60,974 bases of DNA from a virus. Location of the stretch: IMG/VR virus record IMGVR_UViG_3300047510_002148, positions 1 through 60,974 of that record. The stretch is one strand, 5' to 3'. The position numbers and the translations under genes were made by a program. Numbering within the stretch: position 1 is the stretch's first letter; every line of letters begins with the position of its first letter. Positions 26,141 to 60,974 of this stretch are shown piece by piece. Below the pieces are notes generated by a model, which was given only the letters and a program-made list of their open reading frames with translations, was not told where the DNA came from and did not search any database.

Positions 26141-29100
26141 ATGAAAAAACTTTTACATTACTACGAATTTACTCCATCACAAAACAAAATTGTAATTGAT
26201 GGTATTTACAAACCAGAAAGATTTTTATTAATTACTAATGTAACTGCTAATCAAACTATTTTTACATTTAATAGTACCACAGCAGGACTAAACAGTATTA
26301 CATATGATTATCCAAATGAAAAAACTACTTTAATATTAGATTATAATTGCTCAGCAATGAGTTCTACAGATAAATTACAAATATTTGCAGAACAAGATTT
26401 TGGTAATTTTGAACCTAGTGATACTTTTGTAGATCCGGTTAGTAAATTACGAGTTAGTCAGCCATCAAACTTAATTGATACAGACTTTGAATATGGATTA
26501 CAAAGTACAAAATGGGAAACTCTTGAAAAAGTAAAAAACATTCCTACATTTTTTGCAAGGAATGGAGATGCAGATTTAGTAGTTAGTGATATTCAAACTG
26601 TTTCTGGCAGTGATGTTGTGACAGTAACATTAAGTGAAGTTCACACATTATCACCAGGAAGCCCAGTAATTATTTTAGGTTCTAAAAATATTACTTGTGA
26701 TGGTGGATTTGTGGTTGTTTCTGTTCCAAATGACACAACAATATTGTATAAAGCAAAAGGAATTCAATCATTTACTGGAAGTATTAAAGATACTTACACT
26801 CAAGTTTTTCCAGGATCACTTTATACTGGAACAGAATTTGATATTTCTGGTATTGAAGGAATTGTAACTGACGGTAATTCTTCATCTTCATTAACTGTAA
26901 CAACAGCTTATCCAACAGAATTTTCAGTAAATACTAGTTTCTTTTTATCAAACAGTAAAGGAACAGTAGCATTAAATTTTGATACAGCAAATGTTCAACC
27001 AAATACTTATATAGAGTTATCAACAACAGTAAATAATAATACAGCAACTAATGAATCTAACACTGGTTTTATGATAGGTGCTGTTAATCCATATGATTTT
27101 GATCCATTGGGTGCATTTTATTTTACTGCAAGTGACATAACAGTAGATTCGGCACAAGATACTGTTACATTTAATTTCAATCACGGAATAACAGACAATA
27201 CACCATATCTTTATGTTGTTGGTGAAGGAAATACTGGAATAACTGGATTAGCAACTTTTAATGGTTATTATGTTCGTGTTTTAAATTCAACAACAGTTTA
27301 TTTTACAGATAATTTTGGAGGTACAACAAGAATCCAAATAAGTGGATCTGGTTCAAATGGCGGAGTAATGCGATCGGCCCTTATTAGAGCATGGAGAATT
27401 TTAGCTACAGATTCATCTGGATTTAATGGTGATGCTGTATTATTTGATCAAAATCACGATTTCAATTTTTCAACAGATAACAATTTACCTGTTGCTTTTT
27501 TTGATGGTAGCACTGGTAGTGCTGTAACAGTAAATACTACTTTAGCTTCTGTTACTGCATATTATTTCCTTCCAGATTCATCAAATACTAGTGATGTAAC
27601 AAGGTGGGCAAGATTTAGATATACTTTTAATGGGTCAGTAGTTCAATGGAATAATGTTGGTTTGACTAATGTTGGTGCGTTTATGATAAAAATGCGAAAT
27701 TTGACTGATAATAATAGCATTTATTTTCCAAATCATGGTTACACAACTGGTTCTTTAGCTACATTTACAACAGTTTCAGGTGTTACTCCTGGTGGTTTAT
27801 CTAGTGGTGCGTTATATAATGTAGAAGCTGTAAGTGCTAATAGACTTAGATTTAGAACAACTGCTGGAGGATCTATTAATTTAACATCTATAGGTTCGTC
27901 AGATGGTATATATACAGTTTCTTCAAGAGTTTCAAATGCAAACAATGAGTCAATTACAATACAAAATCATAATCTAAGTGATGGTACTGCTGTCATATAT
28001 AACAATGATTCTAATACTGCAATTGGTGGACTAACAAATGGAACTACATATTATGTATTCCAATCCACTCTCAATACAATAAAATTAGCAACAACACCAC
28101 TTGGTTGGATAACGTCATCAATTTCTATAAATCATGGTTTTACAAATTTTGGTACTGACGTATTTACAGCTACTATTGGTACTACTGTAATAGCTCATGG
28201 TTTTACAACAGGACAAGCTGTTCGTTACTCTTCAAGTACTCCTTTACCAGGTTTAATTAATGGTGCTTGGTATTGGGTTAGAGTTTTAAGTTCAAGTGCA
28301 TTTTCATTTCATTGGACTAAAGATGGAGCTATAAACAACACAGATAGAGTGAATGTTGAATTTGGTACAGGAACTGGTTTTGCTAGAACAGCAAATTTAG
28401 TAGATATAACTTCAACTGGTTCAGGAACACAAAGTTTAGAAGCTGTAAGTAATAACGCAGCAGATGGTGTTTATAAACTTACAGAAAAAATAACAGATAC
28501 TTCATTTAAAATAACAGCCAATAATGAATTGCCATTAAGAAAAATTACAATAACATCATCTTTAGATTTAAATAGAAATGCTTTTTTTGTACCTAATCAT
28601 GGTCTTATAACTGGCACTCCAGTAACATATACATCAACTTCTACTGTTATGTCTGGATTAACAAATGACACCACATATTATGTTATAAGATATAATAACA
28701 ATTGGTTTAAATTAGCATCGTCATTAGCAGATGCTGAAAGTTCTATTAATGTATCTATTACATCTAATGGTACTGGGATTCATAGATTAACCACTTCAAT
28801 AGTTTCAGGAGAAGTTTTAGGTTCTGGAACAGTTAGTATATCAAATACTACCACAAAAATTGTTGGTGTTGGTACCAATTTTCCAGCAGTTTTTACTAGT
28901 GGAAATACTATAAAATTATACAAAAATCCATCACAATTAACTGGTTCAATTTCAGGTTATGATGCAGCTAATGATACATTTACAACTCCAATAGTACATA
29001 ATTTTACAACAGGTAACAGTTTATATTTTAATTCTGCTGATGTAGTTCCACAAAATATTGAATTGAATAAAATATATTATGTTAGAGTTTTAACTACTCA

Positions 29101-57540: not shown

Positions 57541-57558
57541 TGTTGTTTTTATACAACA
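57541..57558 (+). promoter_or_regulatory. 18-nt palindrome, copy 1 (operator-like)
   Basis: TGTTGTTTTTATACAACA: 6-bp arms TGTTGT / ACAACA around TTTTAT. It ends exactly 7 nt before the -35 box of the following promoter. An identical copy lies at 59871. Confidence 0.75.
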
Positions 57559-57565
57559 TCTCGTA

Positions 57566-57593
57566 TTGACAATTCCCCCATTTCTGATATAAT
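57566..57593 (+). promoter_or_regulatory. Sigma70-like promoter of the vWA-peptidase gene
   Basis: TTGACA (57566-57571), 16-nt spacer, TATAAT (57588-57593), followed by a TAGGAAC ribosome site ahead of the ATG at 57619. The -35 box lies in TTGACAATTCCCCC, identical to the second promoter at 59896. Confidence 0.85.
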
Positions 57594-57618
57594 AGTCGTA
57601 TATTCGATAGGAACTGTT

Positions 57619-59868
57619 ATGACTACATTTACTTCCCAAACTAAATCTCAGCTAGCTAAATTGCTTGCGACTGAGAATATTCGTATTGAACACCGTAAAA
57701 TGAATACGGCTGCATTTGATCCTAAAAACCGTGTTCTATACTGTCCCATTTGGAAAGATATGAGTGGCGATCTTTATGACCTTTTGATGGGTCACGAAGT
57801 CGGTCACGCTCTTTATACACCTGCACAAGGTTGGCATGATGCCGTTTGTGACAATGGTAAGAATTTCAAGGCATTTTTGAATGTTATTGAAGATGCCCGT
57901 ATTGAGAAGAAAATCAAACGCAAGTATCCTGGTTTGCGTCCTTCTTTTGTCCGTGCATACAAAACTCTAATGGATCAAGACTTCTTTGGTATTGGAAACA
58001 AAGATATCAATGATCTGTCTTTCATTAACCGTTTGAATCTCTACACTAAATCTGATTATACTCTGTCTGTTACTTTCGGTGCAGAAGAAAAAGATTTGGT
58101 TGACCGTGTTCGTGCTTGTGAAACTTGGGATGATGTAATCAAAATCACTGGTGAAGTCTGGGATTATTCCAAGAAAGAACAAGAAGAACAATTCAATTTC
58201 AATTATGATTCTCCCATGGATGATGCTGAATTCTCTGAAGGTCAAGAATTTGATGACGGCGAATCTTTTGGTGATGATTATGACGAATCAGAAAATGTTG
58301 AAGGTAAAGGTTCGGCCGAAGGTGATACTGATGACGATGGCGATGATGACTTCGATGAAGAAGGTAATGAAATTAATCGTTTCAAAGATTCTTCTCCTTG
58401 TGAATCATTTGATGAACCAGTTTGCGAAACTGACAATAACTTCCGTAATCGTGAGAGTGATCTTCTTGATGAAAAATCAAAAGACTATCTGTATCTAACA
58501 TTACCAAAACCTGTTATGAAACAGATTGTCACACCTGCAAAACGAGTTCATGAGCAGATCGAACAAGATCGCAATTCACGATTCTCTGATGCACAAAAGT
58601 GCAAACTTGAGTCTTTGATTCAAGAGTTCAAGAAACGCAATGAGAAATATGTTTCGCTTCTTGTCAAAGAATTTGAGATGAAGAAAGCTGCATCTCGTTT
58701 TGCAAAGGCAAAGGTTGCGAACACTGGCGATATTGATGTATCTCGCATCTACAAGTATCAGGTAGATGACAATATCTTCCGTAAAGTAATGCGTGTACCC
58801 AAAGGTAAATCGCACGGTCTTGTTCTTCTTCTTGATCGTTCTGGTTCTATGAATGATAACATGGCTGGTTCTATTGAACAGATTCTTGTGCTTACATCGT
58901 TTTGCCGCAAAGTGAATATTCCTTTTGTCGTTTACGGTTTCGGTGATCAAGTTCTCGTTCGTAATACTTGTGACTTTCCGAATGAGTTTTCGCCTAATGC
59001 TAAAGATCGTATTACTGAGCGTATTGCTTGCTTTAGTACGAACCCGAAAGAACTTCAAATGGGTACCGTGTTTTTGCGTGAGTATATGAATTCTAAAATG
59101 TCCAATTCAGAGTACACTAAAGTACTCCGTAACATGGTTCAATTGATGAATTCTTATGGTACTGATCGTTTGTTTTCTGCTTCAATGTCAGAATCATTGA
59201 GTAACACACCAATGAATCAGGCTATGATTGCTCTTGCCAATCTTACTAACGAGTTTCGCAAAGTGAACAATCTTGACATTGTAAACACCGTTTTGATTCA
59301 CGATGGTGATTCTGATTTTTGCAATTACTACTACAACCCTACCATCGAAAAGTCTTGGCATGTAAGTGGTATCAGTTATCAGTACACTAATGTCTTTATC
59401 GTTGACAAGTCTACCAAGAAAGAATATCAAGTTAAACGAGCAGAAGATATTCAACCACAGATCATGAACTGGTATTCTGATAAAACTGGTTCAAAGATTT
59501 TCGGTTTCTTTGTGTCTACTTCCAATCGTTCTGCTATTCCGAATATGATTCGTGACCACTATGTCGATGAAAAAGGTAATGATCTGAACAATCGTTCAAT
59601 TTACAAAGATTGGGAATCATCTAAAGAGAAAGTGAATCTTCTTGTGAAAGAATTCAAGAAAGAAAAACTTTTGATCTCGTACAAACCTGGTTACAATAAG
59701 TTCTTTCTGATTTCTGGTGGCAAAGACCTTAAGATTGAAGATGAAGATTTTACTGTAGAAGGCAAAGTTACTGCATCAAAACTTGCCAATGCGTTTCTGA
59801 AACACAATCAAAAACGCCAAGTGAGCCGTGTACTAGTCTCGAAATTCATTGATGGGATTGCGGTCTAG
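57619..59868 (+). CDS. vWA-domain protein with N-terminal HExxH metallopeptidase-like domain (CobT-like)
   Basis: 749 residues. N-terminal domain: HEVGH (59-63) in LMGHEVGHALYTPAQ and NVIEDARIEKKIKRKYPG with E91/D92 as a possible third zinc ligand: a gluzincin-like arrangement. A strongly acidic stretch (residues about 200-255: FDDGESFGDDYDESE ...). C-terminal von Willebrand A domain: GLVLLLDRSGSMNDN with MIDAS D406-x-S408-x-S410. Relatives in marine T4-like phages are labelled peptidase or CobT-like. With the MoxR/CobS-like ATPase next door it forms an AAA+/vWA pair of the type used to remodel proteins or insert metals. Actual substrate unknown. Confidence 0.85.
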   Translation: MTTFTSQTKSQLAKLLATENIRIEHRKMNTAAFDPKNRVLYCPIWKDMSGDLYDLLMGHEVGHALYTPAQGWHDAVCDNGKNFKAFLNVIEDARIEKKIKRKYPGLRPSFVRAYKTLMDQDFFGIGNKDINDLSFINRLNLYTKSDYTLSVTFGAEEKDLVDRVRACETWDDVIKITGEVWDYSKKEQEEQFNFNYDSPMDDAEFSEGQEFDDGESFGDDYDESENVEGKGSAEGDTDDDGDDDFDEEGNEINRFKDSSPCESFDEPVCETDNNFRNRESDLLDEKSKDYLYLTLPKPVMKQIVTPAKRVHEQIEQDRNSRFSDAQKCKLESLIQEFKKRNEKYVSLLVKEFEMKKAASRFAKAKVANTGDIDVSRIYKYQVDDNIFRKVMRVPKGKSHGLVLLLDRSGSMNDNMAGSIEQILVLTSFCRKVNIPFVVYGFGDQVLVRNTCDFPNEFSPNAKDRITERIACFSTNPKELQMGTVFLREYMNSKMSNSEYTKVLRNMVQLMNSYGTDRLFSASMSESLSNTPMNQAMIALANLTNEFRKVNNLDIVNTVLIHDGDSDFCNYYYNPTIEKSWHVSGISYQYTNVFIVDKSTKKEYQVKRAEDIQPQIMNWYSDKTGSKIFGFFVSTSNRSAIPNMIRDHYVDEKGNDLNNRSIYKDWESSKEKVNLLVKEFKKEKLLISYKPGYNKFFLISGGKDLKIEDEDFTVEGKVTASKLANAFLKHNQKRQVSRVLVSKFIDGIAV

Positions 59869-59870
59869 AG

Positions 59871-59888
59871 TGTTGTTTTTATACAACA
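59871..59888 (+). promoter_or_regulatory. 18-nt palindrome, copy 2 (operator-like)
   Basis: Identical to 57541-57558 (TGTTGTTTTTATACAACA) and again 7 nt upstream of TTGACA. Confidence 0.75.
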
Positions 59889-59915
59889 GAGGGGGTTGAC
59901 AATTCCCCCTTTTTT
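59888..59915 (+). terminator. Terminator of the vWA gene overlapping the next promoter
   Basis: Stem AGAGGGGG (59888-59895) with CCCCCTTT (59905-59912, one G-U pair), loop TTGACAATT, followed by more T residues. The loop is the -35 region of the AAA+ gene promoter. Confidence 0.65.
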
Positions 59916-59924
59916 CGTTATAAT
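59896..59924 (+). promoter_or_regulatory. Consensus sigma70-like promoter of the AAA+ gene
   Basis: TTGACA (59896-59901), 17-nt spacer, TATAAT (59919-59924): a perfect match to the bacterial consensus. GATAGGAG precedes the ATG at 59956. Confidence 0.9.
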
Positions 59925-59955: not shown

Positions 59956-60974
59956 ATGCCTCGCACTATTAATCGCCAACTTTTCATTGACGCCCTTGTT
60001 GCAACCGGTAAAACTTCTTTGACTCGTACTGAAGTCAAAGAAGTTGCCAAAAAAGTAGGAATTGGAAGTATTCAATGGTTTACCAGTGACGAACAAAATC
60101 GTCTGAAGCGTGGACTATATAAAGTACCCACTGCTGTTGCAAAACCTGCAACAACTGCTCCCATAACTATTGAAATGCAAGCTCAGGTTATTCCTATGCA
60201 AACTTCTAAAAATCGTATCAGTTCGGTTGTGACTGATCTTGAGGTCGAAAACCTTGTACCGAATGTATACAAAAATTATGTACCTTTCGGTCATTTTGAT
60301 GACCTAGTTTCGATCATCGGTTCGAATCAATTCTATCCGATCTTCATTACTGGTCAATCAGGTAATGGTAAAACAATGTCTGTTGAACAGGCTTGTGCCA
60401 AACTAAAACGCAAATTCGTTTGCGTCTCTATGACACCTGAAACTGATGAAAGTGATCTGTTCGGTAATTTCGTTTTGATCAATGGTCAAATGGAATGGCG
60501 TGATGGTCCTGTGACTGTTGCTGCTCGTCAAGGTGCAGTACTATGTATTGATGAGATTGACTACGGTTCACAAAACCTTTCCAGTTTGCAGCGTGTTCTT
60601 GAAGGCAAACCATTCTTGCTTAAAAAGAAGAATGAACTGATTCAACCTGCACCTGGTTTTACAGTGATTGCCACTGCGAACACAAAAGGTAAAGGTTCAG
60701 AAGATGGTCGTTACATGTTCACCAATGTTCTGAACGAAGCATTTCTTGAGCGTTTTCTCAATACTTACGAACAAGAATGGCCTTCCAACAAAACCGAACA
60801 AAAGATTCTCAAGAAAGAACTTGAATCTCTTGGTCGTGCTGATGATGAATTTGCTCAGAAACTTGTTACTTGGGCAGAAGTCATTCGCAAAACCTTTGTT
60901 GAAGGCGGTGTTGACGAAGTGATTTCCACTCGCCGTCTTGTGCATATTGCCAAGACCTACTCTGTGTTCGGAGA
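59956..60974 (+). CDS. MoxR/CobS-like AAA+ ATPase (3' end outside window)
   Basis: 339 codons are visible and the frame is open to the window end. N-terminal 60 residues (INRQLFIDALVATGKTSLTR ...) look like a small helical, winged-helix-like domain. AAA+ core: Walker A GQSGNGKT (133-140), Walker B VLCIDEID (D199, E200), sensor 1 VIATANTKG (N242) and EAFLERF with a likely Arg finger. CobS-like genes are frequent in marine T4-like phages. The neighbouring vWA-peptidase and the shared promoter architecture suggest the two act together, as in MoxR-vWA chaperone pairs, rather than in cobalamin synthesis. Confidence 0.85.
   Translation, partial: MPRTINRQLFIDALVATGKTSLTRTEVKEVAKKVGIGSIQWFTSDEQNRLKRGLYKVPTAVAKPATTAPITIEMQAQVIPMQTSKNRISSVVTDLEVENLVPNVYKNYVPFGHFDDLVSIIGSNQFYPIFITGQSGNGKTMSVEQACAKLKRKFVCVSMTPETDESDLFGNFVLINGQMEWRDGPVTVAARQGAVLCIDEIDYGSQNLSSLQRVLEGKPFLLKKKNELIQPAPGFTVIATANTKGKGSEDGRYMFTNVLNEAFLERFLNTYEQEWPSNKTEQKILKKELESLGRADDEFAQKLVTWAEVIRKTFVEGGVDEVISTRRLVHIAKTYSVFG

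Follow-up and report, generated by a model that had tools for sequence, protein, structure and literature searches.

Two genes at the end of a viral DNA stretch of 60,974 nucleotides (IMG/VR record IMGVR_UViG_3300047510_002148, positions 1 to 60,974; the whole stretch is referred to here as the window) are each preceded by the same palindrome set just upstream of a promoter, which raises the question of what acts at this palindrome. An initial reading made from the sequence alone (the sequence-only reading) had placed two such 18-nt palindromes 7 nt before a -35 box and then TATAAT, and both were found as described: TGTTGTTTTTATACAACA is present as an exact 18-mer at 57541-57558 and at 59871-59888, with TTGACAATTCCCCC 7 nt 3' of each copy, followed by TATAAT (all window features given here lie on the plus strand). 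The description of the entire 18-mer as palindromic was correct for the arms, TGTTGT and ACAACA, and incorrect for the TTTTAT centre, which is asymmetric.

Downstream of the first copy, the -35 box TTGACA (57566-57571) and the -10 box TATAAT (57588-57593) are separated by a 16-nt spacer and are followed by a ribosome-binding site and the ATG (57619) of a gene predicted to encode a vWA-type peptidase of 749 amino acids (57619-59868; phrog_459 'peptidase', E 1e-175). The second copy begins 2 nt beyond the stop codon of this gene and is followed by TTGACA (59896-59901), a 17-nt spacer, TATAAT (59919-59924) and a ribosome-binding site before the ATG (59956) of a CobS-like AAA+ ATPase gene (59956-60974; AAA_5, E 1.6e-23), which continues past the end of the window. 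Both have the make-up of strong sigma-70 promoters (TTGACA, a spacer of 16-18 nt, TATAAT, then a ribosome-binding site and start codon), and with a 17-nt spacer the palindrome is predicted to be centred at approximately -51.5. The window contains no other exact TTGACA/TATAAT promoter (0.32 expected), and a repeat search of the window returned a single 43-nt family of 84% identity with copies 2330 bp apart. The 7-nt linkers between palindrome and -35 box are unlike in the two copies, which diverge outside the palindrome and the -35 region.

The vWA and AAA_5 genes of the window correspond to the peptidase/CobS pair of Kyanoviridae phages, and in Pelagibacter phage HTVC008M the gene row reads peptidase, CobS, ribosomal protein S21 and a winged-helix protein. 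The major capsid protein of the window shares 63-64% identity with its counterparts in cyanophages, in HTVC008M and in Methylophilales phage Melnitz. A longer copy of the window phage (G001, 120 kb) carries the same two cassettes and encodes a gp55-type late sigma factor (phrog_234), so that the cassette promoters presumably form a host-polymerase-dependent early or middle set. This record also has 24 tRNA genes in a single array (L129:7246-11760; 25 on L129 overall), part of which is driven by one palindrome cassette, and a predicted permuted (two-piece) tmRNA (L130:11589-11986) with the tag ANDERFALAA. We take this to be a Burkholderiales tag, in which case the hosts plausibly belong to that group.

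IMG/VR was scanned for the pattern TGTTGT-N6-ACAACA-N7-TTGACA, which was found in at least 119 loci, compared to 6 loci for a swapped-arm control of equal composition. Nearly all of the exact-pattern matches listed preceded a -10 box and either a start codon or a tRNA leader and, when redundancy was removed, a -10 box was present in 87 of 91 N7 cassettes. A chance repeat was ruled out by these counts, together with the 0.32 promoters expected in the window. The exact palindrome was absent from four isolate records (DLP6, HTVC008M, Melnitz and S-H38), each of which has at most two one-mismatch sites, and no description of the motif was found in the open-access literature searched.

The exact cassette was matched 7 times in 257 Gb of bacterial and archaeal sequence, where approximately 7 to 8 would be expected by chance (a rough estimate that assumes uniform composition). 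A palindrome 6-18 nt before TTGAC was found in 6 of 399 Burkholderiales genomes, while 90 Burkholderiales genomes had 0-3 exact palindromes each (29 in total vs 14 for the control), mostly without promoters. A host regulon was therefore rejected for all of these sets, which gave chance-level or single-locus matches only, and the cassette is, within the range tested, specific to phages, with no visible host regulon. Four of the six Burkholderiales matches place the TTGAC box exactly 16 nt past the palindrome, and three of these are seemingly one conserved locus. Pattern-found Burkholderiales loci L199, L201 and L202 share a conserved intergenic palindrome of the type TGTTGTTTT-RR-TACAACA exactly 16 nt before TTGACA, with AATATTGCCTTGACA at the end of the spacer; L202 has no clear downstream ORF, and no Rfam match was found for this bacterial locus.

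Conservation was assessed in viral loci fetched with the winged-helix protein encoded near CobS as the only query, in which vWA and CobS were located by tblastn and an upstream palindrome was called at no more than 2 mismatches in 12. CobS was preceded by the palindrome in 43 of 50 loci, at a distance of 4-9 nt from the -35 box and with a near-perfect -10 box beyond it, and vWA in 23 of 35; among these, loci of closely related phages are not independent. Since the vWA and CobS proteins of these loci are mostly only 45-75% identical, intergenic DNA would otherwise have drifted, and the 18-bp element must have been kept by selection. Among loci selected by the cassette itself, six carried it before both vWA and CobS. 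In L451, L457 and L462 the vWA copy is present and the CobS copy is missing, a pattern that would be compatible with a single promoter serving a single operon. The sequence-only reading had named a lack of conservation in relatives as evidence against its proposal of a shared DNA-binding site co-regulating vWA and AAA+; these loci show the reverse. A shared binding site of dimer type and a conserved co-regulation of the two genes are both supported.

The regulated set also proved to be larger than the two genes first proposed: the pair was retained and further targets were added. In G001, the palindrome accompanies almost every intergenic promoter with perfect consensus boxes. Among cassette-bearing records, the genes that recur downstream encode phrog_27048-type proteins (15 loci), the vWA peptidase (10), SWIM-type proteins (8) and CobS (7); tRNA arrays that have a GTTCTTTAAAAA leader recur there too.

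The site itself was characterised in a set of 1117 nonredundant strong promoters, of which 202 carry the exact palindrome and 71 a version with one mismatch. Of the latter, 69 vary at outer arm positions, namely 1 (15 variants), 6 (28), 13 (20) and 18 (6), while the eight core positions are changed in only 2 of the 71. Changes at position 6 are always T to C and those at position 13 always A to G, so that they mirror each other; the palindrome centre is 89% A/T. This symmetric tolerance yields the consensus GTTGY-W6-RCAAC, which, judged on sequence, would be the signature of a dimer-binding site read as two half-sites. Strong selection thus acts on the element, which has two-fold symmetry, is confined as a promoter cassette to phages and lies upstream of strong sigma-70 promoters of a recurring set of genes. 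Two other arrangements were observed in the course of this survey. Record G433 (L349-L352) carries four copies (55257, 56898, 60499 and 62224) of a longer block, GTGCCGGGGTGTTGT-N6-ACAACA...TTTTGG-TTGAC, with 10-nt spacing. On the minus strand of G011 (L167-L173; e.g. 117630, 114303, 83801 and 66371), TCCAAA lies a few nucleotides before TTGACA or TTGACG in the absence of the palindrome, an arrangement that makes up a second class of promoter in phages of group B.

The distance from palindrome to -35 box was measured in nine whole records from groups A and B, which are distantly related, and was 6-8 nt in 40 promoters or 14-17 nt in 13; these counts are not independent as several of the records share orthologous promoters, and the records were chosen for N7 cassettes, a choice which did not select for the 14-17 class. 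Spacings of 0-5, 9-13 and 18-42 nt were not found in these records, three further promoters had spacings of 43-46 nt, and the swapped-arm control gave none. The centres are predicted to lie at approximately -51.5/-52 for the main class and -60 for the minority. In a wider phage set the spacing was spread over 8-29 nt with peaks at 9, 16 and 20; helical phasing, clear in the nine records, was weak there and was rejected as a universal property. The discrete positions are lineage-specific support for a protein acting from upstream and not a universal rule. The sequence-only reading had regarded a centre at about -50 as the usual place for an activator. A centre at -51.5, however, coincides with neither of the standard activator positions, class I or class II, and both promoters already possess consensus -35 and -10 boxes, so that the role of activator can be called no more than probable.

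A hairpin around the -35 box was also evaluated. The CCCCC common to both window copies stands in different contexts, because only in copy 2 does it pair with GGGGG in a hairpin that encloses the -35 box. This terminator-like RNA hairpin, AGAGGGGG-UUGACAAUU-CCCCCUUU followed by Ts (59888-59912; -12.5 kcal/mol, z -2.6), has the -35 box as its loop. Similar -35-in-loop hairpins occur in the vWA-CobS intergenic regions of L005, L019, L411, L417, L430 and others. The CobS copies of relatives keep a linker-spacer stem with different sequences (e.g. GGTAGGC/GCCTACC and TGGCTGG/CAGCCA), and in none of 500 linker swaps among nonredundant CobS copies was the mean as stable as that of the real sequences; for vWA copies 333 of 500 swaps were as stable, i.e. 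there was no effect. The hairpin is therefore conserved as a group feature of the CobS copies, with stems that differ by lineage, and is absent from the vWA copies; it was rejected as a general feature of the cassette, the overall signal being weak (4 of 200 swaps) and clear in CobS copies only. Most of the relatives' hairpins have no T-run, so termination is likely in the window only, at copy 2, and elsewhere the hairpin may be an mRNA 3' structure.

Three known systems were compared with the cassette. The sites of P2 Ogr and P4 Delta are 18-bp dyads, TGT-N12-ACA, located upstream of a phage promoter (PMC3931495). The cassette contains TGT-N12-ACA exactly and is likewise upstream of a promoter; the Ogr/Delta sites are centred near -55 and bound by a small phage activator. 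The predicted centre of the cassette is -51.5 (N7) or about -60 (N15-16). P2 promoters lack a TTGACA -35 box and drive late genes, whereas cassette promoters have consensus -35 and -10 boxes; the cassette differs further in its core, GTTGY-W6-RCAAC, and in that a search of 24 cassette-bearing records for PF04606 (Ogr/Delta) at E<=0.1 gave no match, many of these records being fragments. By this comparison the cassette shares the form of the Ogr/Delta sites and would act as an upstream activator site does, but would fall outside them on its -35 box and on the protein. As for Crp/Fnr-type sites, the inner triplets of the palindrome are 8 nt apart (TTG-N8-CAA, as in Fnr), and the minority position, 15-16 nt from the -35 box, equals what we take to be the class I position of CRP at lac. 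The main centre of -51.5 is, however, neither -61.5 nor -41.5, the TG/CA flanks are extended, no host regulon was seen in the 90 Burkholderiales genomes, and the Crp-type HTH (PF13545) was not found in 20 records at E<=1 (again, many are fragments). The likeness to T4 consists of strong host-sigma-70 promoters in a T4-like phage with a gp55-type late sigma factor. A MotA box substitutes for the -35 box in T4 middle promoters, whereas TTGACA is intact in the window and in the exact-pattern cassettes, and to our knowledge T4 early promoters carry no palindromic operator.

Of the explanations considered, that the palindrome is itself an RNA hairpin, e.g. a terminator of the preceding gene, is highly improbable: the position of copy 2 just past the vWA stop codon would suit it and the RNA of that copy can be folded (-4.5 kcal/mol), but the stem is weak and has no T-run, other copies precede tRNA arrays or follow long intergenic gaps, and the terminator-like structure at copy 2 is a separate G5/C5 stem. 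Moreover, the T to C change at position 6 (28 of the 71 variants) alone disrupts pairing, so that the variants are better explained by protein recognition than by a hairpin, whether in RNA or as a cruciform. It is less improbable, though still very unlikely, that RNA polymerase alpha subunits read the DNA directly as an UP-element-like or structural feature with no regulator involved; the A/T-rich centre, at approximately -54 to -49, is close to the distal UP subsite, yet the eight positions of the core, four of them G/C pairs, hardly vary and show two-fold symmetry, which the A/T tracts of UP elements lack.

If a protein is bound, it could be a phage repressor or dual regulator that silences strong early-type promoters, for example by an over-tight hold on RNA polymerase, as p4 of phage phi29 does at a promoter whose -35 box matches the consensus. 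In keeping with this, the -35 and -10 boxes are near-perfect throughout, so that added recruitment is not obviously needed, and the phage encodes a late sigma factor, to which early promoters must yield at some stage. We nevertheless regard it as unlikely, since the site is always upstream of the -35 box and never over the -35 box, the -10 box or the start, the usual places for a repressor. That a host regulator binds the palindrome and is exploited by the phages is a little easier to accept, although rather doubtful: TTG-N8-CAA equals the half-site spacing of Crp/Fnr-type sites, the promoters are of the host sigma-70 type, a Burkholderiales host is plausible from the presumed tmRNA tag, no Crp-type HTH was found in the phages, and there are the four Burkholderiales matches with the 16-nt spacing, three of them seemingly at one locus. 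A site so common in phages should, on the other hand, come with a host regulon, and neither the chance-level number of perfect cassettes in 257 Gb of genomes nor the few, mostly promoterless palindromes of the 90 Burkholderiales genomes points to one; for this reason the cassette is treated as a phage feature.

The explanation that we favour, and consider somewhat probable, is that the palindrome is the operator of a dimeric, phage-encoded regulator acting as an upstream activator on the sigma-70 RNA polymerase of the host; from the above we infer that a protein binds, that it activates rather than represses, and that it is of phage origin. A dimer would occupy GTTGY-W6-RCAAC just upstream of the consensus promoters and would most likely contact host RNA polymerase from there, and this contact would raise transcription of a phage regulon comprising vWA, CobS, SWIM-type and phrog_27048-type genes, tRNA arrays and other small genes. 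Against an activator, promoters with perfect -35 and -10 boxes normally need none, and a centre at -52 is no classical activator position.

The regulator would most likely be encoded by the phages themselves, and the most widely shared DNA-binding-like protein found is the 89-amino-acid winged-helix protein encoded near CobS (G001 116114-116383), which is present in both groups and in several other large phage records. Its model has a winged helix and a C-terminal helix (pLDDT 76), and the nearest solved structures are PadR-type dimers (best E 4.6e-3), with no significant match. Because homologues occur in DLP6 and HTVC008M, both of which are without the palindrome, this modelled protein may be considered only a weak candidate. 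G001 also encodes a protein of 172 amino acids (27547-28065; L130:7547-8062) with an apparent N-terminal winged helix and a histone-H1-like KAPKTPK tail, which had no PHROG match and is possibly another DNA-binding protein of the group A phages.

A broader view can be put forward tentatively, as a possibility rather than an expectation: a previously undescribed, phage-encoded dimeric activator, possibly the winged-helix protein by CobS, may define a large promoter class in distantly related aquatic T4-like and jumbo phages, as a second early/middle switch replacing MotA/AsiA. The cassette provides a searchable promoter signature for a regulon in uncultivated T4-like phages and points to a regulator that could be retrieved with an 18-bp bait, and it ties one regulatory site to the widespread and unexplained vWA-peptidase/CobS pair of T4-like phages.
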